A DNA stretch of 56,740 nucleotides from a virus: positions 1-56,740 of the IMG/VR virus record IMGVR_UViG_3300032278_003763; one strand, written 5' to 3'. The notes under the pieces were generated by a model. The model was not told the DNA's origin. It ran no database searches and saw only the letters and a list, made by a program, of their open reading frames with translations. The position numbers and the translations under genes are program-made. Below are positions 22,847-42,841 of the stretch, piece by piece (position 1 is the first letter of the stretch; each line of letters opens with the position of its first letter).

Positions 22847-22892
22847 CTTAAGGGAAAAGAAAGCTGGGAGTCAGAGACGACCAAAAAATGAG
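22847..22892 (+). repeat. Direct repeat copy 2, overlapping dNMP kinase start
   Basis: Contains AAAGCTGGGAGTCA (22860-22873), identical over 14 bases to copy 1, preceded by a TTTCC-TTAAG-GGAAA hairpin and followed by CCAAAAAATGAG, where ATG (22888) is the start codon. Copy 1 has ATA at the equivalent place. The GGGAG lies about 16 bases before ATG. Confidence 0.6.
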
Positions 22893-23484
22893 AAAAAAAT
22901 ATGTGATTGGATTAAGTGGATTAGCGAAATCAGGAAAAGATTTATTCTATAAAATACTTTCAAGGCAGATAAAAATTAAGCGTCACGCTCTTGCGGACGA
23001 ATTAAAATTTGCCCTCCGAGAAAGAATTCTTAAGGAGGACGATATAGACATACTGGACTGTTCCTCCGACCAAAAAGACATCGTAAGGCCAAAGTTGGTA
23101 GAGTATGCAAAGAAAGTAAGGTTTTCTTCTAAGGGAAGACATTGGATCGAGACGCTTAACAATAAAATTCTTCCTGTCAGCGAGTCGATTTGCGTCACAG
23201 ACGTAAGGTATGATGATTATGAAAATGATGAGGTTCATTGGCTAAAAAATGAACTTAATGGAATTCTCGTCCATATCTCCAAGTACGAAATTTTAAATAA
23301 TAATAAAAAGTTATTTTTTGAAGCCCCGAATGAAGAAGAGCGTCGTAATAACCCGAAACTAAGAGATAAAGCCGACTATATCGTTGAATGGCCTATCTCT
23401 AGCAAGCAAGACCCCGAAGAGATGGAGAAAGAATTAGAACCTTATGTCTCAGAATTCGTCGGTTGGCTTAGAAAAAGAAGATGA
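22888..23484 (+). CDS. Deoxynucleoside monophosphate kinase (T4 gp1-like)
   Basis: 198 aa. The P-loop is GLAKSGKD (residues 11-18), followed by KRHALADELKFAL, the LADxLK segment typical of phage dNMP kinases, and VTDVRYDDYENDEVHWLKN, the conserved 'v.DvRy..E...lk' segment. The enzyme phosphorylates dNMPs to dNDPs with ATP and works with the ribonucleotide reductase downstream. The start ATG gives a complete N-terminus (MRKKYVIGLSG). It overlaps the sigma factor gene by 41 bases. Confidence 0.8.
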   Translation: MRKKYVIGLSGLAKSGKDLFYKILSRQIKIKRHALADELKFALRERILKEDDIDILDCSSDQKDIVRPKLVEYAKKVRFSSKGRHWIETLNNKILPVSESICVTDVRYDDYENDEVHWLKNELNGILVHISKYEILNNNKKLFFEAPNEEERRNNPKLRDKADYIVEWPISSKQDPEEMEKELEPYVSEFVGWLRKRR

Positions 23485-24070
23485 TCCGTCTTTGGTTAAG
23501 AATGTCGTCGATAAGGCCTGTGAGGCTAGTCTCCTCGAGTTGATTACTAGACATGAAAGACTTTATTATAAAGTGAGTCAAAAATACTCTTCTTATAACA
23601 GCCGTCACGGCATACCCCTAGACGACATTTCTGATGACAAGTTTTTTATTATCTATAGAGCCATATTAGCCTTTGATCCGTCGAAGAATGTTAAATTCTC
23701 CACGTGGTTGGGAAACTTTGTCAGATACCACTCCCTCAATCACATAAATAAGAGCAGTAAATTTGTTAAAACCGAAGAAAGTTCTTTAGAGTATCTTCTC
23801 AATAGCAAGTCTGCTGAAAAGCATGAAAATCTAAAGCTAAAAGAAGAAAATGAATTTGTTTTTAATATTCTTAAACAGCTTAAAGACAAGAGGATACATC
23901 TGGTTTTTCGCCTCAGATACTTTTCGGGAGAAAAGAAAATGACTTGGGCGAGGATAGCCAAGAGATTAAGCGTAAGCACCCAGACAGCTATTAACCTACA
24001 TGATAAGGGTAAAAAAGTCTTAGTTAAGAAATACAACACCAAGAATGCGAATTGTTTAGATAGAGTCTAA
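23444..24070 (+). CDS. Phage sigma factor (sigma70 family, regions 2 and 4)
   Basis: 208 aa. Region 2-like: LLELITRHERLYYKVSQKYS to FIIYRAILAFDPSKNVKFST, with WLGNFVRYHSLNHINK as the -10-recognition helix. Region 4-like: LKDKRIHLVFRLRYFSGEKK, MTWARIAKRLSVSTQT, INLHDKGKKVL, which is a helix-turn-helix. Regions 1 and 3 are missing, as in alternative and phage sigma factors. It would redirect host RNA polymerase to phage promoters. The start at 23444 lies 41 bases inside the dNMP kinase gene, with a ggagaaag sequence upstream; a later start is possible. Confidence 0.78.
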   Translation: MSQNSSVGLEKEDDPSLVKNVVDKACEASLLELITRHERLYYKVSQKYSSYNSRHGIPLDDISDDKFFIIYRAILAFDPSKNVKFSTWLGNFVRYHSLNHINKSSKFVKTEESSLEYLLNSKSAEKHENLKLKEENEFVFNILKQLKDKRIHLVFRLRYFSGEKKMTWARIAKRLSVSTQTAINLHDKGKKVLVKKYNTKNANCLDRV

Positions 24071-26018: not shown

Positions 26019-28475
26019 ATGGCTTCTGATATTTCACACGTTAAAAAGAGGAATGGTAGGCTCCAAGAGCTAGACATTAACAAGATCAACCTATGCGCTC
26101 AAAGAGCCTGCGAGGGGTTAGCTGACGTTTCTGCCAGCGAAGTTGTCATAGATGCAAACGTAGAGCTTTATGAAAAAATCCCCACTAAAGACATAGACAA
26201 AGCTCTAATCATGTCTGCGAGAGGCAAGATAGAAAAAGAACCAAACTATTCTCACGTGGCAGCCAGACTACTGCTTGGAAACATACACAAGGAAGTATCT
26301 GGAACTAGCGTCGATAAAGACGCTTTTGATCACCAGTATAGATTATCTTTTATTAAGAATATAAAACTCTTATCTAAAGAAGGCATGCTTAGTGAAAAGC
26401 TGCTCACGTTCGATCTAAAAAAACTTTCTGAAGCGCTAGATTTAACCCGCGACTTCAAATTCAAGTACCTCGGCCTGCAAACTTTATATGATAGATATTT
26501 TTTGCACATTGATGGTCGGAGAATGGAATCTCCTCAGTCGTTTTGGATGAGGGTAGCCATGGGGCTCTCCCTAAACGAGAAAGATAAAGAAAGGAGATGC
26601 ATACAATTTTATAATGCTATTTCTCAATTTTTAGTTTGCCCCTCCACCCCTACCCTTTTTAATAGTGGCAGCACGAGGAGTCAGCTTAGCTCTTGCTACC
26701 TTAATACGTTTGATGATTCTATCGATGGGATTTTTGAGGGAGCATGGCAAGAAGCAAGAAAATCTAAGTTCGCAGGGGGCTTAGGTTTTGATGTGTCGAA
26801 CTTTAGGTCAGCAGGTTCGCACATAAAGAGCACGAATGGAACATCTAGCGGCCTTATACCTTGGCTCAAAATTTTTAACGACCTTCTCGTAGCGGTTAAT
26901 CAAGGAGGCAAACGTCCCGGCGCAGGCTGTGCTTATCTTGAGCCTTGGCATTTGGATATTGAAGAATTTCTCGACCTAAAAAAGAACACTGGCGACGAGA
27001 GGCGTCGTTGCCATGACATGAATACAGCCAACTGGATTCCTGATTTATTTTTTCGTAAAGTTCAAGCTGATGATGACTGGTATTTATTTTCTCCTTCTGA
27101 CGCCCGAGACCTTCACTGTCTTTGCGGGGGAGACTTTGATAAAGCATATAAAAAATACTGTAAATTAGCAGACGAAGGAGAAATCACCAACTTCAAGACC
27201 CTAAAAGCTAAAGACCTTTGGAAAAAAATGCTTAGGAGCCTTTTCGAAACCGGTCACCCTTGGATGACCTTCAAAGATAATGCAAATTTTCGTTACTCCA
27301 ACAAGCACGAAGGCGTTATTAATAGCTCTAATCTTTGCACAGAAATTTTCTTACATACTAAGCCCTCTCTTTTTAAGGACGGGAAAAAGGCAGAGATAGG
27401 AGAAACGGCAGTATGCAATTTAAGCTCTATCAACCTTAAAGAGCACCTAAAAGACAATGGCAAATTAGATTTTAAATTACTAGGAAGAAGTATAGCTACC
27501 CAGATGAGGATGCTCGACAATGTAATTGATTTAAATTTTTACCCTACCGAAGAAGCGAAAAAGGCGAACTTGGCCCATCGCCCCGTTGGGGCGGGGACCA
27601 TGGGTTGGGCGGACGTTTTTTATTCTTACGAATTAAATTTTTCATCAGACGATGCGGTGAAGTTTTCTGACGAGTTGTATGAGTTCATTTCCTACCAGTG
27701 TATTTTAAATTCCTCCAAACTCTCTAAAGAAAGAGAAGAATACAGCACTTATAATGGGTCACTGTGGAGCCAAAACATTTTACCTATTGACACTTACAAG
27801 CATTTGATGGATTATTTAGGTGAAAAACCTATAGCGCATAGAGGAAAAAAATATGCTCCTGAAGTGGATTGGAAAATTGTTCGTGACCATATACGAGAGC
27901 ACGGTATGCGTAATAGCAATACTATGGCTATTGCTCCTACTGCCACCATATCTTACATTCAGGGTTGCTCTCCCTCTGTTGAGCCTGATTTTTCTACATT
28001 GTTCGTCTACGAAAATAAGTCGGGAAATTTAGTCGTAGTAAACGAGTGGTTCATTAGAGAATGTAAGAATCTTGGGGTTTGGAACCAATCTCTAGTAGAC
28101 ATGCTTAAATCAGTAAATGGAGATCTTAGCAGGCTAAACGGGGAACTGCCAGAAGACGTCAAGTCTAGATACAGGACCGCGTTCGATCATGATCAGTTTA
28201 AGCTAATAGATAGCGCTGCCGCAAGACAAAAATGGATTGACATGGGACAGTCGTTGAACCTGTTCAACAACAGCACTTCATTAAAATACTTGAATGATTT
28301 GTATATGCATGCTAGAGTTAGAGGGTTAAAGAGTACCTATTATTTAAGGAATAAGAGTGCAAGCGAAATTGAGAAATCTACGGTGGTGGGTGTCACTAGT
28401 GATAGTGAGTCAGGTGATACTGATACTCCTAAGGCTTGCAACGTTTTAGATCCGACATGTGAGAGTTGCCAATGA
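26019..28475 (+). CDS. nrdA: Class I ribonucleotide reductase large subunit
   Basis: 818 aa. N-terminal ATP-cone (about residues 6-95: KKRNGRLQELDINKINLCAQ). Catalytic set present: C226 (SQLSSCYLNTF), NLCTEIF with C440 and E442, C466 (AVCNLSSINL), and Tyr-Tyr 774-775 (STYYLR). The C-terminus ends DPTCESCQ, giving a C814/C817 redox pair. It reduces ribonucleotides to deoxyribonucleotides together with NrdB, and the ATP-cone suggests nucleotide control of overall activity. Four small genes separate it from nrdB; the next starts within its stop (ATGA overlap). Confidence 0.95.
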   Translation: MASDISHVKKRNGRLQELDINKINLCAQRACEGLADVSASEVVIDANVELYEKIPTKDIDKALIMSARGKIEKEPNYSHVAARLLLGNIHKEVSGTSVDKDAFDHQYRLSFIKNIKLLSKEGMLSEKLLTFDLKKLSEALDLTRDFKFKYLGLQTLYDRYFLHIDGRRMESPQSFWMRVAMGLSLNEKDKERRCIQFYNAISQFLVCPSTPTLFNSGSTRSQLSSCYLNTFDDSIDGIFEGAWQEARKSKFAGGLGFDVSNFRSAGSHIKSTNGTSSGLIPWLKIFNDLLVAVNQGGKRPGAGCAYLEPWHLDIEEFLDLKKNTGDERRRCHDMNTANWIPDLFFRKVQADDDWYLFSPSDARDLHCLCGGDFDKAYKKYCKLADEGEITNFKTLKAKDLWKKMLRSLFETGHPWMTFKDNANFRYSNKHEGVINSSNLCTEIFLHTKPSLFKDGKKAEIGETAVCNLSSINLKEHLKDNGKLDFKLLGRSIATQMRMLDNVIDLNFYPTEEAKKANLAHRPVGAGTMGWADVFYSYELNFSSDDAVKFSDELYEFISYQCILNSSKLSKEREEYSTYNGSLWSQNILPIDTYKHLMDYLGEKPIAHRGKKYAPEVDWKIVRDHIREHGMRNSNTMAIAPTATISYIQGCSPSVEPDFSTLFVYENKSGNLVVVNEWFIRECKNLGVWNQSLVDMLKSVNGDLSRLNGELPEDVKSRYRTAFDHDQFKLIDSAAARQKWIDMGQSLNLFNNSTSLKYLNDLYMHARVRGLKSTYYLRNKSASEIEKSTVVGVTSDSESGDTDTPKACNVLDPTCESCQ

Positions 28476-28678
28476 CTGACAAAGAATTTGAAAAAGTGAC
28501 AGAGAATTTAGCAGATAAAGCTAAAGCGGCAGGATATAATGACCTTGCTATAGTTTTATATGTCTATTTGGGGTCGGAAAAGGTTGGCATGGGCAGTGAA
28601 TTCGCTAGATATTGTCAACGCTTTGCTGAAGAAGGCAAAAGGCAAATAGAATTACTCAAAAACAGAAGAAATAACTAA
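28472..28678 (+). CDS. Hypothetical protein between nrdA and nrdB
   Basis: 68 aa, ATG start overlapping the nrdA stop (ATGA). Helical and charged; contains YNDLAIVLYVYLGSEKVGMG and a basic end (QIELLKNRRNN). No known domain. Position suggests co-translation with nrdA; function unknown. Confidence 0.6.
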   Translation: MTDKEFEKVTENLADKAKAAGYNDLAIVLYVYLGSEKVGMGSEFARYCQRFAEEGKRQIELLKNRRNN

Positions 28679-28686
28679 TAAACGAG

Positions 28687-28890
28687 ATGGGAGTCGTTCA
28701 AAAAAAATTATCCAAAGCGGAAATCGGGAAAGACAGAGGGTCTTTCGTTGATTTCGAGATGAACGAAAACGGAATTGTACATATTCAAAACAAAACGTGG
28801 AGAATTGAAATGGAAACCCAAGAATTCGTCGAATTCGCTACGGCCTGTGTCAAAGCGGGAAACAAACTAAAGGAATTGAAGGGGGTATAG
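28687..28890 (+). CDS. Small protein, paralogue of the 30209-30406 product
   Basis: 67 aa. The core GIVHIQNKTWRIEMETQEFVEFATACVKA aligns with the core GIHIHYKNFRLDYTIEEF and LNFSNACEEA of the gene at 30209: 'G[IV]HI..K..R[IL][ED]....EF..F..AC..A'. Related short proteins occur in bacteria with no proven function. The fold looks like a beta hairpin plus helix. It precedes the nucleotidyltransferase-like gene by one base. Confidence 0.6.
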   Translation: MGVVQKKLSKAEIGKDRGSFVDFEMNENGIVHIQNKTWRIEMETQEFVEFATACVKAGNKLKELKGV

Positions 28891-28891
28891 C

Positions 28892-29500
28892 GTGCCAGCT
28901 GGGGAAATAGAAGTATTAGAAAAGGTTATGACCTCTATAGCCGAAACGATAGACGATTTCGTGATACTGTCTGTACATGACGATGTTGACATTTTAGTCC
29001 CGAAGGACCACAAGCCGGTAGTCATAGAGATTTTGGAGAGTTTTGGATTCGAAGGACACGTTAATGGGAGCCCGAAGTGTTTGTATTATGCAGAGCCACC
29101 CATTCAATACTATGACTCTAACAAATGCCATATAGACCTGCAAACAGGGCTATACTACAAAGGGATAGAGCCAAACATTCTTGTCCCGATTGACATTAAA
29201 TTTCAAGAATATGCATACAGTACGCGCGTGAAAACGAATGACACGTGGAGATACAGGCTATCACCAGAATCGAACGTGGTTCACACCACCTGCAGAATGA
29301 TCTTTGATAAAAGGCAAGAAGATACGCCTCCCCACTATAGAAAAAGGCTGGAAAAGGCCTTAAATCTATCTAATAAATCAGAACTCAAGCTCGTATTTGA
29401 CATGGCCTTATTTAAGTTTGGGGAAAAGGCGTTAGAGCTAGTGACGAAAGGGGAATTAGATAATTTATTTCAGGAATACATCAGCTATGGAGACTATTAA
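28892..29500 (+). CDS. Nucleotidyltransferase-like protein
   Basis: 202 aa, GTG start with Shine-Dalgarno GGGGG. The N-terminal core, DFVILSVHDDVDILVPKDHK and a later HIDLQTG, has the D.D[IL]LV and a further Asp as in nucleotidyltransferase-fold (NTP_transf_5-type) proteins. The C-terminus is helical. Substrate unknown. It is within the nrdA-nrdB interval and overlaps the next gene by 14 bases. The family is suggested by motif only. Confidence 0.5.
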   Translation: MPAGEIEVLEKVMTSIAETIDDFVILSVHDDVDILVPKDHKPVVIEILESFGFEGHVNGSPKCLYYAEPPIQYYDSNKCHIDLQTGLYYKGIEPNILVPIDIKFQEYAYSTRVKTNDTWRYRLSPESNVVHTTCRMIFDKRQEDTPPHYRKRLEKALNLSNKSELKLVFDMALFKFGEKALELVTKGELDNLFQEYISYGDY

Positions 29501-30230
29501 GCCTCAGAAAAGAAAGAGAAGCATTTATACTTCTGCGCGTGGGTGGTCTCCTACAGAATTTACTGTCGAGTATTCGGTCGGAGCCGTTTGCTCGTACAGA
29601 GGACCATTACTTTATGAGGTTTGGAAAGACGGTGAGGGCCTCTTATATTGGGTGATATTAAACCAAGTCGTCGATCATCATGTTCTAGAAGATTCGTCCT
29701 TGATAGAGCGAATACTAAAATACTCCCAAGAAGACAATTGGGTCGTTGAGACTTTTCTTATCGAAGAAAATTGCTGTATAACAAAATTTTATCCTAATTA
29801 TTTTCCTGTTTTTATCAACAATTCCCACGAACCTTTATACGGTAAGAAAAAAAGAGAAGAGAGAGAGCAAGCTAGGGTTTCTTATTTTACTGATCAAAAC
29901 AGAAAAGATTTTCGTCTTAAGGCTATAGATCAATATAAGATGTTTTCGGATCGTACAAACTGTTTTTTTGAAGACGTTGCAATCAATAATTTTTTAGCTT
30001 CCGAAGACTTTAAAGATATTAAAATCATCGACGTGTGTTCTATACAGCCGGGCCATATCACAGACCAAGTAGCCAAGGTAGACTCAAATAATGACCGGGT
30101 TTTGCGGGTGATGTCGCAATGGGATACAGTCTTAACTCGTGAACCTTGCTTTGACAAGACTCCCCCAGACGTTGTTCGTTGGACGAAAGACTATAAGGAA
30201 TTTAGAAAATGGCTATTAATACAGGAGTAA
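29487..30230 (+). CDS. Hypothetical protein
   Basis: 247 aa. Mixed alpha/beta; basic N-terminus (QKRKRSIYTSARGW), then a beta-rich part (LLYEVWKDGEGLLYWVILNQ). No family recognised. It overlaps its neighbours by 14 and 22 bases in the RNR operon. No signal peptide or membrane segment. Confidence 0.55.
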   Translation: METIKPQKRKRSIYTSARGWSPTEFTVEYSVGAVCSYRGPLLYEVWKDGEGLLYWVILNQVVDHHVLEDSSLIERILKYSQEDNWVVETFLIEENCCITKFYPNYFPVFINNSHEPLYGKKKREEREQARVSYFTDQNRKDFRLKAIDQYKMFSDRTNCFFEDVAINNFLASEDFKDIKIIDVCSIQPGHITDQVAKVDSNNDRVLRVMSQWDTVLTREPCFDKTPPDVVRWTKDYKEFRKWLLIQE

Positions 30231-30406
30231 TCATTTTAGAGAATAAAGATCTTGTCTACACTAAGCCTAGTTGCAGATTAGAGATTGAAGATAACATAGG
30301 AGAAGGCATACATATCCATTATAAAAATTTTAGGCTTGACTATACAATCGAGGAATTCCTCAATTTTTCTAACGCGTGTGAGGAGGCCTTAGCATCAATC
30401 AAATGA
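30209..30406 (+). CDS. Small protein, paralogue of the 28687-28890 product
   Basis: 65 aa. Shares the 'GIHIHYKN.RLDY..EEF..F.NAC' pattern with the other copy. It overlaps the preceding gene by 22 bases and its TGA overlaps the nrdB ATG (ATGA). The two copies bracket the unrelated pair of genes between them, as expected from duplication followed by insertion. Confidence 0.6.
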   Translation: MAINTGVIILENKDLVYTKPSCRLEIEDNIGEGIHIHYKNFRLDYTIEEFLNFSNACEEALASIK

Positions 30407-31413
30407 GCAAGACTGGTTTAATATTGGAAGAGCACGTTACGGGGGTTAATCAGATTTTACCTCATAAGCATCAATTTGCTTGGGATCTATTTCTGAAGGG
30501 CGTTGCAAACAATTGGTCTCCAGCAGAGGTAAACATGACCGAGGACGTTGACCAGTGGAAAAGCGGTGCTCTTACGGATGATGAAAAGCTACTTGTTAAA
30601 CGCTGTTTAGGTTTTTTTGCAGGCACGGAGTCTTTAGTAGGGAATAATTTGCTGTTAACAGTTAACAGGTGGGTGACTGATGCGGAGTGCAGTCAATATA
30701 TACTCAGGCAGGCCTACGAAGAATCTTTACACAACTGGACTATCGTTACCTGTTGCGACAGCTACGGATTGAAGGTGTCAGAGGTCTACGAGGCCTATTT
30801 GAATATCCCCAGCATCAAAGCCAAGGACGATTTTTTAATGGAGATAACGACTGATGTTAATAGACAAGATTTTTCGACGAGAACCACGGAAGGCAAGAGA
30901 GAATTTCTTCGCAACTTAATTACTTATTATATGGTATGTGAAGGCACGTTTTTCTTTAGCGGCTTCGCTATGCTATTGGCCTTAGGCAGACAAAATAAAC
31001 TCCCCGGCCTGTCTGATCAAATTCGATATACCCTAAGAGACGAGAGTTTGCACATACAGTTTGGAACTTACCTAATCAATACGATAAAAGAGCAATACCC
31101 ATCGGTGTGGACAAAGAAATTTGAGCAAGAGACCGTTGAGCACATAAAGAAAGCGGTAGAGCTCGAAGTCCAATATGCACATGACGTTCTTCCTCGGGGT
31201 ATTTTGGGATTAAATGCTGACATGTTTGTCGATTATATGAAATATATAGGCAATCGGCGGTTAGAGAGCATTGATATAGACTTTCGTTTCGATAGCGACG
31301 ACAACCCATTTCCTTGGTTATCAGAAGTGGTAGATATAGGCGCAATGACTAACTTTTTCGAAAGAAAGGTCAAAGATTATCAAAGCTCAGGGGTTTTAGA
31401 AGACGATTTTTAA
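30403..31413 (+). CDS. nrdB: Class I ribonucleotide reductase small subunit, radical Tyr replaced (subclass Ic-like)
   Basis: 336 aa. All six metal ligands are visible: E76 (FFAGTESLVGNN), E107 and H110 (QAYEESLHNWTI), E180 (MVCEGTFF), E214 and H217 (RDESLHIQFG). The residue four after H110, where class Ia/Ib enzymes have the radical tyrosine (E. coli Y122), is I114 (codon ATC 30742-30744). Glu as the first ligand plus a missing Tyr is the signature of Mn/Fe subclass Ic, known from Chlamydia trachomatis (Phe at that position). The C-terminus ends GVLEDDF, able to dock on NrdA. It generates the radical for NrdA. Transcription of the operon seems to end beyond it. Confidence 0.93.
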   Translation: MSKTGLILEEHVTGVNQILPHKHQFAWDLFLKGVANNWSPAEVNMTEDVDQWKSGALTDDEKLLVKRCLGFFAGTESLVGNNLLLTVNRWVTDAECSQYILRQAYEESLHNWTIVTCCDSYGLKVSEVYEAYLNIPSIKAKDDFLMEITTDVNRQDFSTRTTEGKREFLRNLITYYMVCEGTFFFSGFAMLLALGRQNKLPGLSDQIRYTLRDESLHIQFGTYLINTIKEQYPSVWTKKFEQETVEHIKKAVELEVQYAHDVLPRGILGLNADMFVDYMKYIGNRRLESIDIDFRFDSDDNPFPWLSEVVDIGAMTNFFERKVKDYQSSGVLEDDF

Positions 31414-32167: not shown

Positions 32168-32173
32168 TTGACC

Positions 32174-32905
32174 ATGAAGAACTTTGTGCCTAGGGTTTCC
32201 CTTATCACCTCCGTGTTTAAGGGGGAGCAGTTTATAAAAGAATTTTTTGTCGATATAACCAGACAGACTATCTTTTCTGACTGTCAGCTGGTTTTAGTTG
32301 CCCCAGAATTAGCTGACGACGCCCCAGAGAGAGCGGCCATAGACATCTATACTTCTAAATATGAGAATATCAAATTTATAGAACTAGAATCAGACCCCGG
32401 CATTTATGAATGCTGGAACATAGGTATAAGAGCTTCTTCCTCTCGGTATATTACTAACGCAAACCTAGACGACAGAAAGCATCCTTGTTTTTTGGAAAGG
32501 CTTTGGCTTGAGTTAGAAACTCATCAGGACGTAGATTTAGTTTATGCGCCCTGCTTAATGACGACCACGCCAAATGAATCTTTTGAGTTTAATTCGTCGA
32601 GAAACATATACCCCTGTTATGAGTTTGATGGAGTGAGGGGGTTATTGAAACACAACTCTCCTCATTGTAATCCCATGTGGAGGAGGAGCCTACACGAAGA
32701 ATATGGCTTTTTTGATAAAGAGTTCAGGTCTGCTGGGGATCACGAAATGTGGCTTAGGGCGGTTTCTCAGGGGTCAATATTTAAGCAGGTCAAACAGCCA
32801 TTGTCCTTATATTATTTTAACCCCAAGGGCATATCAACCAACCCCGAACATAACGTGTGGAAGGCGGAAGAAGAAAGACTAGTAAGAGAAAAATATATAC
32901 AATGA
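32174..32905 (+). CDS. Glycosyltransferase, GT2-like (GT-A fold)
   Basis: 243 aa. GT-A start PRVSLITSVFKGEQFIKEFF, an 'ECWNIGIRASSSRYI' sugar-nucleotide segment, and the Asp-rich motif ANLDDRKHP. Later comes GFFDKEFRSAGDHEMWLRAV, the ED-like catalytic base region of GT2 enzymes. It transfers a sugar from a nucleotide donor. First gene of the glycan cassette behind the leaderless promoter; I prefer ATG 32174 to the TTG at 32168. Four-base overlap with the next gene. Confidence 0.78.
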   Translation: MKNFVPRVSLITSVFKGEQFIKEFFVDITRQTIFSDCQLVLVAPELADDAPERAAIDIYTSKYENIKFIELESDPGIYECWNIGIRASSSRYITNANLDDRKHPCFLERLWLELETHQDVDLVYAPCLMTTTPNESFEFNSSRNIYPCYEFDGVRGLLKHNSPHCNPMWRRSLHEEYGFFDKEFRSAGDHEMWLRAVSQGSIFKQVKQPLSLYYFNPKGISTNPEHNVWKAEEERLVREKYIQ

Positions 32906-33717
32906 TATTAGTAACGGTAACCAATCAGAATTTTGCTGCTTCTACTTTTAATTTAATAGAAAGCTATAAGTATTTTTCTTTTGATAAGCACATAGTAGTT
33001 TACGATTTTGGGCTTAATAAAACCTCTGTAGATCTTTTAAATAAAACTTATGGAGATCAAATTTCAGTAAAAAGCGTTGAGCCTGTTTGTCCTCATTCTC
33101 ACAAGCCTAGGACTTTTTTTTATAAGACTTTCGCTATTAAAGGGGCTTCTGAGCTAGGCGAGGACTTTATTTATTCAGACGCCGCCAACGCTTTCGTAGC
33201 TGAGTCTACCCACCTTTATGAAGACGTTAAAAAACAGGGAAGGCTTTTCTTACCCTATACAGCGGAGGGCCTTACCAACAAATACTGGACGACTCAAAAA
33301 TGTTTTACCAAAATGGGTTGCGATAGCCCAGAGTATTACAACGCGCCCCAATATTGGGCTGGTTTTCAGGCTTATTTAAGCAACCAGAATAATAAAGATT
33401 TTATATCTGAGATGTATGACTACATGCTTGATCCGGATATCGCCGAGCCAGACACAACTGTGAGCAGGCCAGATGGACAGGGCAACCCATGCATAGAGCA
33501 CAGGCAGGACCAATCAGTGTTGTCCTTGCTTATCAAAAAATGGGAGTGGGATCAAAAGTATGATGAAACAATAAATAATCGATACGGGGACGTTTCGACG
33601 TTTTCTGATTGGGAAAATGATTTTGATTACGACCTAGACAGCATAGTCTTATCAGCAAGATTTTCGAAGTTCGGGCACTGTAGATATGTAAAGCCGGAGA
33701 TTTTACAGAAATTATGA
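32902..33717 (+). CDS. Glycosyltransferase-like protein (GT-A)
   Basis: 271 aa, starting ATG 32902 in an ATGA overlap with the previous gene; an upstream in-frame start would only add a basic tail. Segments: ILVTVTNQNFAASTFNLIES, IVVYDFGLNKTS, GEDFIYSDAANAFVAEST (Asp-centred, like a DXD region), and EHRQDQSVLSLLIKKWEWD (as in GT families where HRQDQ starts a C-terminal helix). The family is uncertain; the fold and neighbours suggest a glycosyltransferase. Four-base overlap with the next gene. Confidence 0.6.
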   Translation: MILVTVTNQNFAASTFNLIESYKYFSFDKHIVVYDFGLNKTSVDLLNKTYGDQISVKSVEPVCPHSHKPRTFFYKTFAIKGASELGEDFIYSDAANAFVAESTHLYEDVKKQGRLFLPYTAEGLTNKYWTTQKCFTKMGCDSPEYYNAPQYWAGFQAYLSNQNNKDFISEMYDYMLDPDIAEPDTTVSRPDGQGNPCIEHRQDQSVLSLLIKKWEWDQKYDETINNRYGDVSTFSDWENDFDYDLDSIVLSARFSKFGHCRYVKPEILQKL

Positions 33718-34439
33718 GCAAGGAGAAGGGCATAGTGTTCGTGACTCACTTGGGGGTAGGCGATCAGATAATATGTAACGGCATTGTCGTCAATTTATTG
33801 AAAGATTATGACGAAGTCATCCTACCCATAACGTCACGGACGTTGTGTTCGATTGAGAGGATGTATAAAGGGTTAAACGTTAGGTGCATTGACGGTAATA
33901 CGGACGACGACGTTACGTCTATCATACGCAAGCTTCAGTCCGAAGGATATAGTTTTTTAAAAATTGGGGCGTGGGGTGACCATTTTATGGTGGACGACAT
34001 GCCTTTCTCTGAGTCTTTTTATGACCAAGCAGGGATACCTTTTAGCGAGTCCTTTGACTCTTTTCATTTGATTAGAAACGAGGAAGAAGAAGAGAGTCTG
34101 TACAACCGCTATCAACCATCGGGTAAATATGCGTTTTTGCATCAAGATTCGCCTAGAGGACTTAACGTGTCATTTGATAAACACGCGCCAACCGAGGGCT
34201 TAGCTGTTGTTGAGCCCGACTTCAATTTGGAGAAGCCGTCTTCGGACTATTGTAAACTGATAGAGGGGGCTGAGGAAGTACATTGCATAGATAGTTCTTT
34301 CGCTCTTTTAATAGATAGACTGCCCGAAACACCAAACCAAAAACTGTTTTTACATAGATATGTAAGATGGGATAGCTCGAAGGGGAACCAGCAAGGCGCA
34401 CCGACGACTTACAGGAAGCCTTGGGAAGTAATTTTATAA
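33714..34439 (+). CDS. Glycosyltransferase-like protein, GT-B type
   Basis: 241 aa. The N-terminus MSKEKGIVFVTHLGVGDQII and CNGIV is the 'hlGlGDhi.cngl' motif of small GT-B-like proteins in capsule/LPS loci; SFYDQAGIPFSESFDSFHLI follows that family too. The C-terminus ends in EVHCIDSSFALLIDRLPET, with the donor-site-like Glu/Ser pattern. Only 241 aa, so possibly a single-domain or variant enzyme. The stop overlaps TATAAT (34435-34440), a possible promoter for the sulfotransferase. Confidence 0.45.
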   Translation: MSKEKGIVFVTHLGVGDQIICNGIVVNLLKDYDEVILPITSRTLCSIERMYKGLNVRCIDGNTDDDVTSIIRKLQSEGYSFLKIGAWGDHFMVDDMPFSESFYDQAGIPFSESFDSFHLIRNEEEEESLYNRYQPSGKYAFLHQDSPRGLNVSFDKHAPTEGLAVVEPDFNLEKPSSDYCKLIEGAEEVHCIDSSFALLIDRLPETPNQKLFLHRYVRWDSSKGNQQGAPTTYRKPWEVIL

Positions 34440-34465
34440 TAGACTTCTTTAAACAAATATATATT

Positions 34466-35236
34466 ATGAATATGAGCAAGAAGATATTAGTAGTGTCTCA
34501 CGAAAGGGCTGGCACGCATTTCTTAATTAACTCTTTGGCTTGCAATTTTGGTTTAGAGTTCATGCCTAGAAACATCCCCGTACTAAGTCAGAACGCGCAA
34601 GCTTCAGCAGGCGGGCCAGAAGACTACCAAAAACTTACAGCGTTATTCCTAGAAGGTTTAGCTTCCGAAGCTTACAGCCCCACTAAAGAAGTGGTTTTTA
34701 AAAGTCATCATGACATTTTTTATTATGAGTCAATCCCTCAAGAGTTTCTTGAAGAAAATTTTATAATTTTTTATATACATAGAGAAGTTAAAGATACCAT
34801 GAATAGCTTATGGTACTACTTCAGAAGCAATCACCATCAGGGAGACTTTGTCCCTACTGAGGACCCGGAGGAGTTCCCCTTCTATGAAAAGCCTTCCAAG
34901 CATGTTTTTGATAGAGACTATTCTTATCTAGAAGCGAACAATTTAGTGGAAAGATGGAAATATCACCACGAAGGATGGATGGATTCTAGCCTCCCCTCTC
35001 TTAAGATTTCTTACGAAGAGCTACATTCTGATTTTAATGGCAGTTTAGACCAAGTAGCAGGCGTTCTTAATCTAGATAAGACTTCTTGGCATCGGCCCGG
35101 ATTACGTGAGTTTGTGTCTCATAGCCCTTGGAGGGGAGCTATCGGAGATTGGGTGAATTTATTCTCGGAAGAAACCGGAGGGAAAATAGACGCAATAGTT
35201 AACGATGAAAATATCAGTAGGTACAATATTATTTAA
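34466..35236 (+). CDS. Sulfotransferase
   Basis: 256 aa. The start ATG 34466 (or ATG 34472) is chosen over an in-frame start at 34421, because MNMSKKILVVSHERAGTHFL begins directly at the PAPS-binding 5'-phosphosulfate loop (RAGTHF, residues 14-19). IIFYIHREVKDTMNSLWYYF is the 3'-phosphate-binding R..D...S stretch. It would transfer sulfate from PAPS to a glycan or other acceptor. It overlaps the next gene by 32 bases. No signal peptide, so it acts in the cytoplasm. Confidence 0.78.
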   Translation: MNMSKKILVVSHERAGTHFLINSLACNFGLEFMPRNIPVLSQNAQASAGGPEDYQKLTALFLEGLASEAYSPTKEVVFKSHHDIFYYESIPQEFLEENFIIFYIHREVKDTMNSLWYYFRSNHHQGDFVPTEDPEEFPFYEKPSKHVFDRDYSYLEANNLVERWKYHHEGWMDSSLPSLKISYEELHSDFNGSLDQVAGVLNLDKTSWHRPGLREFVSHSPWRGAIGDWVNLFSEETGGKIDAIVNDENISRYNII

Positions 35237-36062
35237 CGCGGAGTCGTGTTTACCCAAAAACATGCTTAACGCGTGGCTTGCGCAAGCTTATGATATAGCA
35301 GACCAAATTCTCATAACCGAAGGAGCCACAAGAGCCAAGAACCATTATTTCGATGGGGACGCTTCTTCTATGACCGAAGACGGAAAGTCTACAGACGAAA
35401 CCATAGAAATAATCAGAAGCTTTCCTGATCCAGAAAGAAAAATTTTACTTTTTCAAAGTAATGATTTTTGGGACGGTAAGACTACGATGTGTAACGCTTG
35501 GAATGATCACGTTACTGGTGATTACTTATGGTTCATATCCAGCGACGAATTTTACTTAGAGGAAGATATAGGAAAGATATTGAAGCTATTAGAAGACGAA
35601 GAGCCGGACCAAGTAGACTTTTTTGCCGATCATTTTTGGGGCGATTTTAATCATTGCGTTGATGAAAGAATGGACGGTTCTTGGGGTAACGATATCCCTT
35701 GGGAGAGAATTTTTAAACATATTCCGGGCTCTAAGTGGGAGAGACATGAGCCGCCTAGATATCTCCATCCAGACGGAGCCCTGACCATAGACAAAAAATT
35801 GATGGACAAATACAAAACGCTGGCTATGGGAATTAAGCTAAAGCATTATGCTTATGTGTGCGAACAGCAAGTAGATTTTAAAACAAAGTTTTATAAAGAT
35901 CAATCATGCAGGAGACTGTGGGACGAGTGGCAAAAAGATCACGAGGTAAGGATTGTTCAAGGCTCCAAAACGTTTAAATACTCTTCGGCTCACCCAGAGA
36001 GCATAAGGAATTATGTTATTCCATTAATCCACGATGAAAAAAAAAGTAATAGTAGCGGGTAA
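35205..36062 (+). CDS. Glycosyltransferase, GT2-like
   Basis: 285 aa. GT-A features: MKISVGTILFNAESCLPKNM, AYDIADQILITEGATRAKNH, GDYLWFISSDEFYLEEDIGK (Asp-Glu metal region). The rest is Trp-rich (HFWGDFNHCVDERMDGSW). A donor-sugar transferase; acceptor unknown. Overlaps the sulfotransferase by 32 bases and the formyltransferase by 29. Confidence 0.72.
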   Translation: MKISVGTILFNAESCLPKNMLNAWLAQAYDIADQILITEGATRAKNHYFDGDASSMTEDGKSTDETIEIIRSFPDPERKILLFQSNDFWDGKTTMCNAWNDHVTGDYLWFISSDEFYLEEDIGKILKLLEDEEPDQVDFFADHFWGDFNHCVDERMDGSWGNDIPWERIFKHIPGSKWERHEPPRYLHPDGALTIDKKLMDKYKTLAMGIKLKHYAYVCEQQVDFKTKFYKDQSCRRLWDEWQKDHEVRIVQGSKTFKYSSAHPESIRNYVIPLIHDEKKSNSSG

Positions 36063-36660
36063 AGGCATACTCGCCATCGAAGTTGCGGATTGGTTTTTGC
36101 AAACAGAGAACTATGACCTGTCCGAGGTAGTTCCCGTCGTGCCTGAGCCAGACTGGTGCGACAGCTTATCCAAATGGGGCCGGGAAAAGAAAGTGTCCGT
36201 CATTAAATCAGGAGACCACAGAAAGTGCAAAACTAAAGATGTAGATTTATTTGTTTCTGTTTTCTACGACAAGATAATCAAAAAAGATTTTATAGATTCA
36301 TGCCGCAAGATTATAAACATTCATAACGGACCGCTGCCCCTTTACAGGGGGGTCAGGCCGATAAATTGGGCCCTGAAGAACAAGGAAAGCTCTCACGGCG
36401 TGACTATACACGAAATCACCCCCGGGATAGATGATGGGCCCATATACGGACAAGTTATTTACCCCATTTATCCAGAAGAAGAAGTGGAAGACGTTTATCT
36501 TAAGTCTCTGGGCTATGCTTTCGCTTTGTTCTCGGACGTGATCTCGAAGATAGATTTAATCGATGCTGTTCCTCAGAGGGGAGACTCTTCTTACTACTCA
36601 ATAAAGGACGATGCCCGCCTCGGCGACAGGAAAGACTGGAGGAGAACTAGGGAAGAATGA
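36034..36660 (+). CDS. N10-formyltetrahydrofolate-dependent formyltransferase, probable sugar N-formyltransferase
   Basis: 208 aa. The formyltransferase core is intact: NIHNGPLPLYRGVRPINWAL supplies the Asn and His, and HGVTIHEITPGIDDGPI supplies the Asp, so the N/H/D triad is complete. The N-terminus KKKVIVAGKGILAIEVADWF is the Rossmann-like start. It is too short for a Met-tRNA formyltransferase (no C-terminal tRNA domain). Context with a sugar aminotransferase and Gfo/Idh oxidoreductase suggests N-formylation of an amino sugar nucleotide. ATGA overlap with the next gene. Confidence 0.75.
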   Translation: MKKKVIVAGKGILAIEVADWFLQTENYDLSEVVPVVPEPDWCDSLSKWGREKKVSVIKSGDHRKCKTKDVDLFVSVFYDKIIKKDFIDSCRKIINIHNGPLPLYRGVRPINWALKNKESSHGVTIHEITPGIDDGPIYGQVIYPIYPEEEVEDVYLKSLGYAFALFSDVISKIDLIDAVPQRGDSSYYSIKDDARLGDRKDWRRTREE

Positions 36661-37529
36661 AAATAGGAATAATAGGTTTAGGGTATTGGGGGAAAAATAT
36701 TTTTAACGTCCTTTCTAAGACGGACCACGAGTTAATCTTGTGCGACCCCTTTTTGACCAATAAGGATCCTTATTCGGGGTATTCATTTCGTGAGGATTAT
36801 AGACTGCTCAATTGTGACGTAGTCTTTGTCATTACCCCGACCTCGACACACCATGAGGTGTGCAAGTATTTTTTATCTGAAGGCACTTCCGTCTTCTGTG
36901 AAAAGCCGTTGTGCCTATCTGTTGAAGAAGTGGAAGATCTATATAAGACCGCGGAAAACAACCAGTGTTATCTTATGACTGATTGGATTTTCTCCTTTAA
37001 TGATGAGCTTAATTTTATCAAATCAGAGTTTGAGAGCGGAGAATTTGGAGGCATTAAGAGCGCTTTTTGCGAGAGACTGAACCTAGGGCCAGTGAGAACT
37101 GACACCAACGCTCGTTGGGATTTAAGTTCTCACGATGTTTCAATAATCACTTATCTTTTTAATGAAATGCCTCATCGTGTTTGTTGGCTGGATACGCGCA
37201 GAAATCCGTCGTCTCAGCTATGCGATACAAGCATTGGCGTCATAACATATAGTAATTTTTATGCTTCGATTCATTCTAGCTGGGAGTACGAAAAAAAGAG
37301 AAGCAGGAAGCTAACGTTTGAGTTTGATCATTGCGTGGTCGAGTGGGACGACGCTGAGAGAACTGTAAAGCGGGACGGAATTATCATAGCAAAAGAATTA
37401 TCCGACACTTCTCCTTTGGAGTATTCTATTTCGTCTTTTCTTTCTATAGAATCAATGCTTTACAGGTTTCAAAAGGAATTAACTTATAAAACCACTTTAA
37501 TTTTATGCAGGTCAAGTTTAACAATCTAA
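36657..37529 (+). CDS. Gfo/Idh/MocA-family oxidoreductase
   Basis: 290 aa, MKIGIIGLGYWGKNIFNVLS with the G.G..G NAD(P) fold. Then VFVITPTSTHHEVCKYFLSE and FCEKPLCL (EKP, the family's Lys), which is diagnostic. The C-terminal substrate domain contains WDLSSHDVSIITYLFN, the DxxxH-like catalytic segment. In nucleotide-sugar pathways such enzymes oxidise C3 before amination. It overlaps the formyltransferase by four bases and the aminotransferase by 25. Confidence 0.83.
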   Translation: MKIGIIGLGYWGKNIFNVLSKTDHELILCDPFLTNKDPYSGYSFREDYRLLNCDVVFVITPTSTHHEVCKYFLSEGTSVFCEKPLCLSVEEVEDLYKTAENNQCYLMTDWIFSFNDELNFIKSEFESGEFGGIKSAFCERLNLGPVRTDTNARWDLSSHDVSIITYLFNEMPHRVCWLDTRRNPSSQLCDTSIGVITYSNFYASIHSSWEYEKKRSRKLTFEFDHCVVEWDDAERTVKRDGIIIAKELSDTSPLEYSISSFLSIESMLYRFQKELTYKTTLILCRSSLTI

Positions 37530-38617
37530 ATAAGCAGTGGGAGGAAGTGGAGCCTATAGTCGCTAAGAGACTTGCTCACGTACATAAACACTCTTCTTAT
37601 ATCCTAGGCGAGGACGTCGCTGTCTTCGAAGAAAATTTTGCCTCCTTTCTCGGCGTCAAATATGCTGTTGGAGTTTCTTCCGGGCTTGACGCTCTGAAGA
37701 TAGGGCTGAGGGCTTTAAATAAAGACGAGGAAGATACCGTCGTCTTCATGCCGGCAAACACCTTCATAGCCACAGCTATTTCTGCCGAGCTAGCTTATCC
37801 TCGCGCCAAAATAATGCTTGTTGATTGTGATAAATATTTTCAAATTAGCATAGAAGATTTAGAAGATAAAATTGAGAAAAATTTAAAATTTAAAAATAAA
37901 ATAATTATTCCTGTTCATTTATATGGGTGCACAGTGGATGCTGTTGGAATAAAAAGGCTAGCAAGGAAATATAAATGTGACATTATTGAGGACGCCTCGC
38001 AATCCCACGGATCGCAATTTAGCGACGGGAGCTTCACTGGAACCTTAGGCAAGTGCGCCGCATTTTCTTTGTATCCGGGTAAAAATTTAGGTGCGGCAGG
38101 AGACGCGGGCATAATTGTTACAAACAATAAAAGGCTTTACGAAAAGATGCTGTCCTTGAGAAACTATGGGTCTGTAGAAAAATATATCCACAAAGACTTT
38201 GGGTACAACAATAGGCTAGATACAATCCAAGCCGTGATCTTAGACGAAAAACTCAAAAAATTGACGAGCTGGAATCATAACAGAAATGATGCCGCCCAGA
38301 TGTATCTAAGAGAGATAGACAACGAACTGGTTAAATTACCAGAAACTCCTAGCTACTGCGGCTTTAACAGTTATCATGTATTTCCGGTCATTTGCGAGAG
38401 GAGAAGAGAGTTACAATTAAAACTAAATGGTGGCGGTGTTGAGACAGGGATTCATTATCCCGTACCCATAGAGCTAAGCCCGCCGTACAAGAGACTGAGG
38501 GCTCGCAGTAAAAATACTAGATTTTTTAGCGAGAACATCTTAAGCTTACCCATACATCCTTTTATGAGGAATAAAGAGATTGCTCATGTTTGTAAATTAA
38601 TTAACGACTTTAGATGA
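37505..38617 (+). CDS. DegT/DnrJ/EryC1/StrS-family sugar aminotransferase
   Basis: 370 aa. PLP-binding signatures: VGVSSGLDALKIGL, IIEDASQSHGSQF and SLYPGKNLGAAGDAG with the Schiff-base Lys. The segment YNNRLDTIQAVILDEKLKKL then TSWNHNR is nearer to C3-amination enzymes (FdtB/QdtB type) than to perosamine synthases; that is an impression, not a computed comparison. It adds an amino group to a keto-sugar nucleotide. Its start overlaps the oxidoreductase end by 25 bases and its stop overlaps the next ATG (ATGA). Confidence 0.85.
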   Translation: MQVKFNNLNKQWEEVEPIVAKRLAHVHKHSSYILGEDVAVFEENFASFLGVKYAVGVSSGLDALKIGLRALNKDEEDTVVFMPANTFIATAISAELAYPRAKIMLVDCDKYFQISIEDLEDKIEKNLKFKNKIIIPVHLYGCTVDAVGIKRLARKYKCDIIEDASQSHGSQFSDGSFTGTLGKCAAFSLYPGKNLGAAGDAGIIVTNNKRLYEKMLSLRNYGSVEKYIHKDFGYNNRLDTIQAVILDEKLKKLTSWNHNRNDAAQMYLREIDNELVKLPETPSYCGFNSYHVFPVICERRRELQLKLNGGGVETGIHYPVPIELSPPYKRLRARSKNTRFFSENILSLPIHPFMRNKEIAHVCKLINDFR

Positions 38618-39582
38618 AAAACTCAGACAAAATATTTGTAGCTGGCCACGACGGCATGGTCGGTTCCGCGATAGTAAGAAAGTTGAGAGCGAAAGGACAT
38701 CACGACAACGTCTTTACTGTGCCTCACGAAGACGTAGACTTAACCAGACAAGATCAAACGGAGGACCTTTTCGAAAGGCTGAAGCCAGACATAGTTGTCA
38801 ATTGCGCGGCAAAAGTAGGCGGAATTCACGCCAACAATACCTATAGAGCGGAGTTCATATACGAGAACCTGCAGATACAAAGCAACATCGTACATAGTTC
38901 TTATAAAGCCGGAGTCGAGAAGCTGTTATTCTTGGGTAGTTCTTGTATATACCCTAAGTTCGCAGACCAGCCCATTAAGGAGGAGTATCTGCTTTCTTCT
39001 CCGCTGGAAGACACCAACGAGCCATACGCTATAGCCAAGATAGCGGGCGTCAAAATGTGTGAGAGCTATAATAGGCAGCATGGGTGTAATTTCGTTTCGG
39101 TTATGCCCACTAATTTATATGGGCCATACGACAATTACCACCCAGAGAATTCTCACGTTTTTCCTGCTTTCATTAGGAGATTCCATGAGGCGTACGTTTA
39201 CAATAGCAAGAACGTAAAGTGCTGGGGCACGGGTAGAGCTAAGAGGGAGTTCTTACATGTTGACGAGTTAGCAGATGCTTGCTTTTTTATTCTTGAGAAT
39301 GTAAATGCTGAAGATTTGAGTAGACAAGGAATTTCTCACCTTAATATAGGTACCGGCCAAGACATATCCTTACATGATCTTGCGTACCTGATTGCTGACG
39401 CTAGTAAATATGAAGGCGCGATAACCTTTGACCTAGATAAACCAGACGGGACGCTAAGAAAGCTGTTGGATGTCTCCAGACTAAAAGACCTTGGTTGGAC
39501 GAATAAGACCTCTTTGATCGACGGGATTATTTCTACCTGCGAATGGTATAAGGAAAATAAAGACACATGGAAAAAGATATAA
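38614..39582 (+). CDS. fcl: GDP-L-fucose synthase
   Basis: 322 aa. Extended SDR: VAGHDGMVGSAIVRKLRAKG is the NADP-binding start, then VNCAAKVGGIHANN, GSSCIYP (Ser and the catalytic Tyr of YAIAK at residues about 140-144 complete the set), and FLHVDELADACFFI. It performs epimerase and reductase steps from GDP-4-keto-6-deoxymannose to GDP-L-fucose. Encoded directly before its partner dehydratase; overlaps it by 16 bases. Confidence 0.92.
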   Translation: MKNSDKIFVAGHDGMVGSAIVRKLRAKGHHDNVFTVPHEDVDLTRQDQTEDLFERLKPDIVVNCAAKVGGIHANNTYRAEFIYENLQIQSNIVHSSYKAGVEKLLFLGSSCIYPKFADQPIKEEYLLSSPLEDTNEPYAIAKIAGVKMCESYNRQHGCNFVSVMPTNLYGPYDNYHPENSHVFPAFIRRFHEAYVYNSKNVKCWGTGRAKREFLHVDELADACFFILENVNAEDLSRQGISHLNIGTGQDISLHDLAYLIADASKYEGAITFDLDKPDGTLRKLLDVSRLKDLGWTNKTSLIDGIISTCEWYKENKDTWKKI

Positions 39583-40664
39583 TTAAAAAAGTGTTGGTTA
39601 CAGGCGTGCTTGGTCAAGACGGAGCGAACATGTGCGAGCTCTTACTCGGAGAGATGAATAAGCTCGGGACGATGAAAGTATTTGGCATGGCGAGAAGATT
39701 ATCTAATCCTAATTATGTAAATTGTAAATCTTTTTTGAGTCACCCCGACTTTCAATTGGTTTACGGAGATCTTTCGGACGAGGTGAGCATAAACAGATTG
39801 GTTCAGGAAATACAACCAGATTATTTTATCAATTTCGCAGCCAATTCTTTCGTAGGTTGTTCGTGGGGTATGCCGCTTCAGGTTTTTGACGTTAACAGCC
39901 TCGGCGTCTTAAGATGCTTAGAGGCAGTTAAGAACTACAAGCCGGACTGCCGGTTTTATAGCGCTGGCAGCAGCGAACAGTTCGGTGACGTAGACTATTC
40001 TCCTCAAGACTTAAACCATCCTTTTAAACCAAGAAGCCCTTACGGCGCTTCTAAATGTGCGGCGCATCACATCATAAAGGTGTACAGAGATTCTTACGAT
40101 ATGTATGCAGTACAAGGGGTACTTTTTAATCACGAAGGCACTAAGCGTGGAGAGGAATTCGTGACAAGAAAAATTTCAAAAGGCGTAGCTAGGATATATA
40201 GCGAAATTAAAAACGTGAACAACTGGAGAGGGCGTCACGGGGTGGCTGCAGAATTTGACCCAATCGAATTAGGAAACCTTGATTCTAAAAGAGACTGGAG
40301 CGACAGCGAGGATTTTATGAAAGGCGTTTGGCTTATGCTGAACCAAGGAGAACCCAAGGACTATCTCTTAGCAAGCGGAAAGACCCATTCCATAAGAGAG
40401 TTCGTAGAGGAGGCTTTCTCCGCGCTAGGCCTTGAAGGTCATTGGGAGGGCGAAGGCTTAGAAGAAAGATACGTGGGTTCCGGTGGTAAGTATAAATATG
40501 TCTTCGTAAAGGTTAATCCAGACTTTTATAGACCTGCGGAGATAGAGATATTGCATGGGGATCCCTCCTCGGCTAAGGAAGAGCTTGGGTGGTCTCCCGA
40601 GATTTCGTTTGATGATTTAGTCAAAAAGATGGTTAGACATGATCTAAAACTTTTACAGAACTAA
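39567..40664 (+). CDS. gmd: GDP-mannose 4,6-dehydratase
   Basis: 365 aa. KKVLVTGVLGQDGANMCELL is the NADP-binding glycine motif of GMD; INFAANSFVGCSWGMPLQVF, YSAGSSEQFGDVDYSPQ (Ser/Glu) and RSPYGASKCAAHH (Tyr-Lys) complete the active site, and LFNHEGTKRGEEFVTRKISK is the conserved GMD substrate segment. It makes GDP-4-keto-6-deoxy-mannose, precursor of GDP-L-fucose and of amino 6-deoxyhexoses. One-base overlap with the following gene. Confidence 0.94.
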   Translation: MEKDIIKKVLVTGVLGQDGANMCELLLGEMNKLGTMKVFGMARRLSNPNYVNCKSFLSHPDFQLVYGDLSDEVSINRLVQEIQPDYFINFAANSFVGCSWGMPLQVFDVNSLGVLRCLEAVKNYKPDCRFYSAGSSEQFGDVDYSPQDLNHPFKPRSPYGASKCAAHHIIKVYRDSYDMYAVQGVLFNHEGTKRGEEFVTRKISKGVARIYSEIKNVNNWRGRHGVAAEFDPIELGNLDSKRDWSDSEDFMKGVWLMLNQGEPKDYLLASGKTHSIREFVEEAFSALGLEGHWEGEGLEERYVGSGGKYKYVFVKVNPDFYRPAEIEILHGDPSSAKEELGWSPEISFDDLVKKMVRHDLKLLQN

Positions 40665-41014
40665 TGAACGCAATTGGGGAGATGATGAAGATAGGCGTAT
40701 CTAAAGGGTTTGCGTTCCATCTTTTGAAAAAGTACCCAAAGGACTTGAAGAAGAAAATAGAGTTCTTTAAGTGGCTTCTTAAAGAGAAGAAGGCTTATTC
40801 TCACAACTATTTCGTTAAGATAGTTGAAAATGGTGCCAGCGGATATTATTTTGATGAGTTTTTGCAACACAAACGGGACGGGGAAGCCATAAAAAAACTC
40901 AAAGACGTTGCTAAGAAGGGACTGATTAGGCGCGAGGTTGGGAAAGAGAAGATAGGACAAGACAAGACGGTAAGAAGAAAGAAAAATATTTTTAATTTTA
41001 TTAACAATGAGTAA
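40664..41014 (+). CDS. Hypothetical basic protein
   Basis: 116 aa, TAATG coupling with gmd. Lys-rich and helical: GFAFHLLKKYPKDLKKKIEF, then LLKEKKAYSHNYF. No known domain. Its end overlaps the recA-like start by eight bases. A DNA-associated role is suggested only by charge and neighbour. Confidence 0.55.
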   Translation: MNAIGEMMKIGVSKGFAFHLLKKYPKDLKKKIEFFKWLLKEKKAYSHNYFVKIVENGASGYYFDEFLQHKRDGEAIKKLKDVAKKGLIRREVGKEKIGQDKTVRRKKNIFNFINNE

Positions 41015-42095: not shown

Positions 42096-42841
42096 TTTCC
42101 CTGAAGCATAAGTTTCTTTTTATTCACCCCCCAAAGACAGCAGGCACCAGCATAGAGCAGGCTCTAATTGAACATTGTGAATTCATAGATTCTAAATTCC
42201 GGACGGTAGGGAGAAACCCTTTACCAATAAGGAGTCAGATGTATAGAGGGAGAAATACGAAACACTGGACCCCAAGATACTACTCGAACAATTTTGATAC
42301 TAGGGGGTTCTTCAAGTTTGCTAGCATAAGAAATCCTTGGGATAGGTTTGTGTCTTATTTCTTTATGTTAACCAAAGAGCCTTGGGTGCGTGAAAATTTT
42401 CATGAATTTATTGTTCAGTGCAAAAACGACTTTACCAATACTAGATTTTCTTTTTATAGGGGCGAGGAACTCCCTTCCCATGTTCCTGAAGAAGACGAGC
42501 ATTGGATGCCTTTAGCAATGACTGGTCGGTGTGTGGATTATGACAGATGGGATTTTCGGAGTTGTCATAAAATGCTTTTGATAAACCAAACCAGAGAAGG
42601 AGAAGAGATGGACCATTTTATCAGGTTCCATAATTTGCAAGGAGACTTTGATGAGGCTTGTGATAGGATAGGAATATCTCGGAAGAAGCTTCCTCACCAT
42701 GGAAATGGAAGAGCGCCCGTAGAAAATGGGATGGGCTACACCAAACATTATACTGAATATTATGATGACGAATTAATAGAAATCGTTGCCAAAAACTATA
42801 AAGATGATATAGATTATTTTGGTTTTAAATTTGGAGAGTAA
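42092..42841 (+). CDS. Sulfotransferase, family 2 type
   Basis: 249 aa. MISLKHKFLFIHPPKTAGTS: the 5'-phosphosulfate loop with Lys15, the usual HxPKTaGT signature. ASIRNPWDRFVSYF is the RNPxDRxxSxy 3'-phosphate site. These belong to the Golgi-type carbohydrate sulfotransferase family (Sulfotransfer_2), which acts on glycans. It is a tandem paralogue of the next gene (RNPWDR, LPHH shared). ATGA overlap with the RecA-like gene. Confidence 0.85.
   Translation: MISLKHKFLFIHPPKTAGTSIEQALIEHCEFIDSKFRTVGRNPLPIRSQMYRGRNTKHWTPRYYSNNFDTRGFFKFASIRNPWDRFVSYFFMLTKEPWVRENFHEFIVQCKNDFTNTRFSFYRGEELPSHVPEEDEHWMPLAMTGRCVDYDRWDFRSCHKMLLINQTREGEEMDHFIRFHNLQGDFDEACDRIGISRKKLPHHGNGRAPVENGMGYTKHYTEYYDDELIEIVAKNYKDDIDYFGFKFGE

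Follow-up and report, generated by a model that had tools for sequence, protein, structure and literature searches.

A viral class I ribonucleotide reductase small subunit with isoleucine at the radical-tyrosine position probably works like subclass Ic

The window (the whole stretch of DNA analyzed, a linear virus fragment of 56,740 bases with lambda-like tail genes for tail fibre J and minor tail proteins) encodes a class I ribonucleotide reductase small subunit, NrdB, that keeps all six metal ligands and has Ile at the radical-Tyr position. In our assessment, this NrdB is probably a functional small subunit that works like subclass Ic: independent of Tyr, with a metal-stored oxidant that is most likely Mn(IV)/Fe(III), and paired with the phage NrdA. 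The observations behind this reading concern its residues, homology, fold, the coupling of Glu76 to Tyr loss, selection, and the partner gene. In profile searches, NrdB (30403-31413) scored 251 bits against Pfam Ribonuc_red_sm and 437 bits (cut-off, 309) against NCBIfam PRK07209. The gene and its key residues are as follows.

30403..31413, + strand: nrdB, class I ribonucleotide reductase small (radical-generating) subunit, 336 aa (translation, alignment, profiles, and fold search)
30514..30516, + strand: Trp38, equivalent to C. trachomatis W51 and E. coli W48, electron/radical pathway (alignment; invariant in the viral clade)
30628..30630, + strand: Glu76, metal ligand 1, which is Asp in Tyr-containing relatives and Glu in Tyr-less ones (alignment and relatives' column)
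30721..30723, + strand: Glu107, metal ligand 2; the preceding Glu106 is the Ic-type second-sphere Glu (alignment and relatives)
30730..30732, + strand: His110, metal ligand 3 (alignment and relatives)
30742..30744, + strand: Ile114 (ATC), radical-Tyr position, equivalent to E. coli Y122 and C. trachomatis F127 (translation, alignment, and relatives)
30940..30942, + strand: Glu180, metal ligand 4 (alignment and relatives)
31027..31029, + strand: Tyr209, equivalent to C. trachomatis Y222, the R2c electron relay (alignment; 136/136 viral relatives; role from PMC4118035)
31030..31032, + strand: Thr210, equivalent to C. trachomatis I223; invariant across the viral clade, where cellular relatives have Ile (column comparison)
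31042..31044, + strand: Glu214, metal ligand 5, adjoining Asp213 (C. trachomatis D226) (alignment and relatives)
31051..31053, + strand: His217, metal ligand 6 (alignment and relatives)
31378..31380, + strand: Tyr326, equivalent to C. trachomatis Y338 and E. coli Y356, intersubunit radical transfer (alignment; invariant in the viral clade)

A sequence-only reading of this DNA had reported the six ligands and an Ile four residues after His110 (ATC, 30742-30744), and both were confirmed by our alignment, the latter also by translation. E76/E107/H110/E180/E214/H217 correspond to C. trachomatis E89/E120/H123/E193/E227/H230, and Ile114 corresponds to F127. The C. trachomatis ligand numbering and the NrdBzc (Ic) pattern, namely E,E,H,E,E,H with second-sphere E and D, have been described previously (PMC6370689), and the ligand and second-sphere pattern of the window NrdB is identical to the latter. 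Glu is the first ligand in Mn/Fe proteins (PMC4118035). Taken at the sequence level, these residues argue against a metal-free cofactor and for a putative Ic-type dimetal site. Class Ie (three carboxylate ligands lost; DOPA) was rejected because all six ligands are present in NrdB, and class O does not fit by ligand pattern or family scores. The class O/Cyano SP RNRs of cyanophages (P-SSP7 and S-CBP4) are also viral, lack the radical Tyr, and have Glu as the first ligand, but they differ in having Asp before ligand 2, where the window has Glu. The catalytic subunit of class O is placed as ancestral to both class I and class II (PMC9531940).

In a sequence search of PDB, the best score was 360 bits, for C. 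trachomatis R2c; 6y2n followed at 337 bits, and the next solved protein reached only 132 bits. The window NrdB is 49% identical to the C. trachomatis subclass Ic subunit. Structure modelling, which the sequence-only reading had proposed as a check, gave a model (pLDDT 83.6) with a predicted fold nearest to C. trachomatis R2c: the top 13 PDB matches were all C. trachomatis NrdB (47-49% identity, rmsd 1.4-1.7 Å, TM ~0.87), followed by 6y2n and then by proteins of at most 28% identity. Features common to the window and C. trachomatis Ic NrdB (1SYY, 4D8F, and 4M1I) are the six ligands, the second-sphere E and D, W51, Y222, Y338, F197, the fold, and the lack of a radical Tyr. The differences, from C. 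trachomatis to the window, are Phe127 to Ile114, I223 to Thr210, Y198 to Phe185, and D236 to Tyr223. NrdBza, the Tyr-bearing subclass Ia of the NrdABz group, belongs to the same larger family (~43-50% identity) but differs by an Asp first ligand, Tyr at the radical site, and Gln at column 190. In the annotated phage collection, the nearest record is only 45% identical to the window NrdB, and this best "phage" match resembles an Acinetobacter chromosomal contig. The annotated phage record CAKLQH020000007.1 ("Acinetobacter phage MD-2021a") carries rstA/rstB, nrdA, and nrdB, and resembles a bacterial chromosome.

Scans of viral contigs yielded 136 distinct NrdB proteins of the same clade, which are ~69-91% identical to the window NrdB in the aligned set. 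At position 114, Val is found in 109 of these relatives and Ile in 27, with neither Tyr nor Phe in any. Codons used at this position by neighbouring relatives are ATA, ATC, GTA, and GTG, so a single mis-called base is no explanation for Ile114. The sequencing error at 30742 that the sequence-only reading had raised against itself is ruled out by these distinct Ile and Val relatives. All six ligands are invariant (136/136), Tyr209, Asp213, and Tyr326 are kept in all 136, and Trp38 is kept in every relative spanning that site; the equivalents of C. trachomatis Y222, W51, D226, Y338, and F197 are invariant in the viral clade. Comparisons of nrdB with its nearest relatives gave pS of ~0.83-0.91 and pN of ~0.06-0.08, and a pN so far below pS indicates strong purifying selection.

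These results bear on whether the protein is non-functional or repurposed (a decayed gene, a sequencing error, or an R2lox-type oxidase). Loss of the Tyr would kill a class Ia enzyme, and R2lox proteins have no radical Tyr at this site. Glu is likewise the first ligand of R2lox (PMC4118035). We nevertheless regard this explanation as extremely improbable, given the low pN, the agreement among the 136 relatives, the retention of Trp38 and the C-terminal Tyr326, and the intact NrdA adjoining. Moreover, R2lox was rejected by its family models, which match at 45-65 bits versus cut-offs of 194-346.

On the trees, Ile and Val at position 114 are interleaved, with at least four switches, which suggests that an inert filler suits this position better than a redox residue. 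Among the cellular relatives sampled, those that are Tyr-less have only F or L at the radical-Tyr site, with no Ile or Val. The NrdBzc reference members have Phe, Leu, or Val at this site according to one study (PMC6370689), and the reference Ic states are Phe and Leu only in a 2026 preprint (PMC12918982). Compared with these reference states, the window has Ile and most of the viral clade (109/136) has Val.

The residue at ligand 1 and the loss of Tyr are tightly coupled. Among 311 distinct relatives, 235 have Glu at ligand 1 with F/L/I/V at the radical site and 76 have Asp with Tyr, without exception; this is a raw count, and the tree holds only one or two independent contrasts, too few for a phylogeny-corrected p-value. 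When we scanned for columns that distinguish the cellular relatives with Glu from the group with Asp, 76, 114, and 190 emerged, along with weaker ones. The viral sequences match the Ic state at columns 76 and 190 and are non-Tyr at 114, but show the other state at column 284. Column 190 is Met in the viral clade and the cellular Ic relatives, and Gln in the Tyr-bearing ones. In both NrdB and NrdA trees, a second Glu/Phe (Ic-type) NrdB group, comprising three relatives and PDB 6y2n, is nested among Asp/Tyr sequences of gammaproteobacterial type, which suggests that the ligand-1 and radical-site residues changed together more than once. Three other viral contigs (74-436 kb) encode NrdB with the canonical Ic states, Glu as ligand 1 and Phe in place of the radical Tyr. 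In these proteins, Phe also replaces Tyr at the Y222 equivalent, and they cluster with sequences from Micrarchaeota and CPR bacteria. Canonical Ic is reported nowhere in the marine viral set of the preprint (PMC12918982).

For phylogenetic placement, the NrdB trees were built with the two trait columns masked. The viral clade is monophyletic (100/100) with a long stem, and joins the E/F clade that holds C. trachomatis, with supports of 83/89 and 86/100. AU tests rejected none of the alternatives for the viral clade (p = 0.33-0.34): outside the E/F group, joined to the Tyr-bearing sequences, or joined to the outgroup. In the NrdA tree, the viral clade branches separately, with full support, next to all of cellular NrdABz, and the nearest sequences to it are two long-branched viral ones of the D/Y type. 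By these sequence comparisons, the viruses appear to make up a clade of their own next to cellular subclass Ia/Ic (NrdABz). The phylogeny with R2c that the sequence-only reading had proposed thus gave a divided answer, with the NrdB trees grouping the clade with C. trachomatis, but with the AU tests rejecting no alternative and the NrdA branch separate. Clear placement in a Tyr-containing clade, which that reading had named as evidence against itself, is not supported by the best NrdB trees, although the AU test does not reject it. Its proposal of a candidate subclass Ic enzyme therefore holds as regards a Tyr-independent, Ic-type subunit, on the basis of the Glu ligand 1, the second-sphere Glu, the best sequence and fold matches to R2c, and the Y222/W51/Y338 equivalents. 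Formal Ic membership is less well supported than working like Ic, because of the long stem, the AU tests, and the separate NrdA branch.

The viral clade also has residues of its own. We found 15 columns that are fixed in this clade and unlike the residues fixed in the cellular Ic and Ia relatives. Of the residues in them, Gly74, Ser108, Asn111, Phe185, Thr210, and Tyr223 lie close to the ligands along the sequence; the cellular counterparts are Tyr for Phe185, Ile for Thr210, and Asp for Tyr223. Thr210, at ligand 5 minus 4, has the same offset as Thr191 of the class Id enzyme of F. johnsoniae; Thr191 hydrogen-bonds a retained Tyr104. Such residues near the ligands are the chief ground for allowing that metal choice or activation could differ from C. 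trachomatis. A Tyr-independent and metal-based enzyme with another cofactor, either Mn(IV)/Mn(III) as in class Id or di-iron, is accordingly a rival that we rate as rather unlikely. Its merits are the Glu first ligand in common with class Id, the offset of Thr210, the clade's own second sphere, and the preprint's committing to no cofactor (PMC12918982). However, class Id keeps its Tyr and has Cys/Ser before ligand 2 and a conserved Lys at ligand 1 +4, where the window has Ile114, Glu106, and Gly80 (by offset), and class Id itself was rejected on these residues. Class Id structures are also far weaker matches in fold and sequence (~19-23% identity), and no NrdI flavodoxin was found within the 56,740-base fragment. 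A related and tentative idea, for which we would give only a modest chance, is that these viral enzymes constitute a Tyr-less class I subclass of their own, in which the aliphatic radical site, the class-Id-like Thr, and Phe185/Tyr223 give a metal centre with a make-up or activation unlike C. trachomatis R2c. This centre might be Mn/Mn, for example, or Mn/Fe with peroxide or superoxide as the activator, and selection would have favoured it for replicating in low-iron hosts.

For the preferred Ic-like reading, we infer the metals, oxidation states, and electron path from C. trachomatis (PMC8463856; PMC4118035). The dimetal site, most likely with Mn in site 1 and Fe in site 2, would react with O2 or peroxide to reach a high-valent state, and one extra electron delivered via Tyr209 and Trp38 would then produce Mn(IV)/Fe(III). 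In C. trachomatis, the electron that forms this state travels by way of Y222 and W51, and Y222 is conserved among R2c proteins (PMC4118035). The oxidant would be held on Mn(IV) with no tyrosyl radical, and would pass through Trp38/Asp213 and Tyr326 to NrdA Tyr775/Tyr774 and Cys440, starting NDP reduction; Ile/Val114 would be a redox-inert filler. A radical on another tyrosine, such as the clade-specific Tyr223 or the conserved Tyr209, could stand in for the missing Tyr, and we consider this very unlikely. Tyr223 is fixed in 136/136 viral relatives where cellular ones have Asp, but cellular Ic enzymes manage without a storage Tyr. Tyr209 is an electron relay in R2c (PMC4118035), and its equivalent is also present in Tyr-bearing NrdBz relatives, so by itself it is not Ic-specific. 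Our literature survey found biochemistry for no member of the viral clade.

The proposed partner subunit is encoded just upstream of nrdB.

26019..28475, + strand: nrdA, catalytic subunit, 818 aa, with an N-terminal ATP cone (profiles, PRK07207; residue check)

This NrdA carries Cys226, Cys440, Cys466, Asn438, Glu442, Tyr774-Tyr775, and a C-terminal CxxC, and the catalytic residues are conserved in the viral relatives. The arrangement of nrdA just upstream of nrdB on the same strand was found in 75/75 loci scored. Small genes lie between them (28466-30406), two of which (28687-28890 and 30209-30406) encode similar-looking short proteins; in Pfam scans of these small genes, the sole match was a weak one to a nucleotidyltransferase (28892-29500). 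At 22888-24070, shortly before the nrdA region, a gene resembling deoxynucleoside monophosphate kinase overlaps one for a sigma-70 region 2 factor. An island at 32168-44143 surrounds a RecA-like gene (41007-42095) with genes for a glycosyltransferase, an epimerase, formyltransferase-like and aminotransferase-like proteins, two sulfotransferases, and a methyltransferase; in a siphovirus-like phage, this may be a cassette for surface glycans or for glycan modification. A 2928-aa ORF (12-8798, + strand) is opposite in orientation to the tail gene block.

The idea of a Tyr-less, Ic-like viral enzyme is not new, since the preprint had already reported viral enzymes in which Ile or Val takes the place of the Tyr (PMC12918982). 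In that work, 269 marine viral class I sequences from GOV 2.0 virioplankton, nearest to NrdAz, were named "subclass Ic-like"; the viruses that carry them were anti-correlated with iron, and the cofactor was given as unknown (Mn/Fe, another metal, or metal-free). Matched by description, both that set and the window clade are viral, nearest to NrdAz, and have Ile/Val at the Tyr site, and they are very probably the same clade. Beyond the Tyr-site identity and ecology of that work, our analysis adds the coupling of E76 to Tyr, the kept Y222, Thr210/Phe185/Tyr223, and the fold match. The sequence-only reading had also suggested a benefit under peroxide or nitric oxide, which is conjecture but possible; avoidance of NO has been proposed for a different Tyr-less cyanophage group (PMC6370689). 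Low iron offers a reason at least as good as oxidants do, given the anti-correlation with iron (PMC12918982).

The biochemistry of subclass Ic comes mostly from one intracellular bacterium. A large viral group whose second sphere is distinct would demonstrate wide use of metal-stored oxidants by phages, and would supply naturally varied enzymes with which to test how Mn/Fe selectivity is set.
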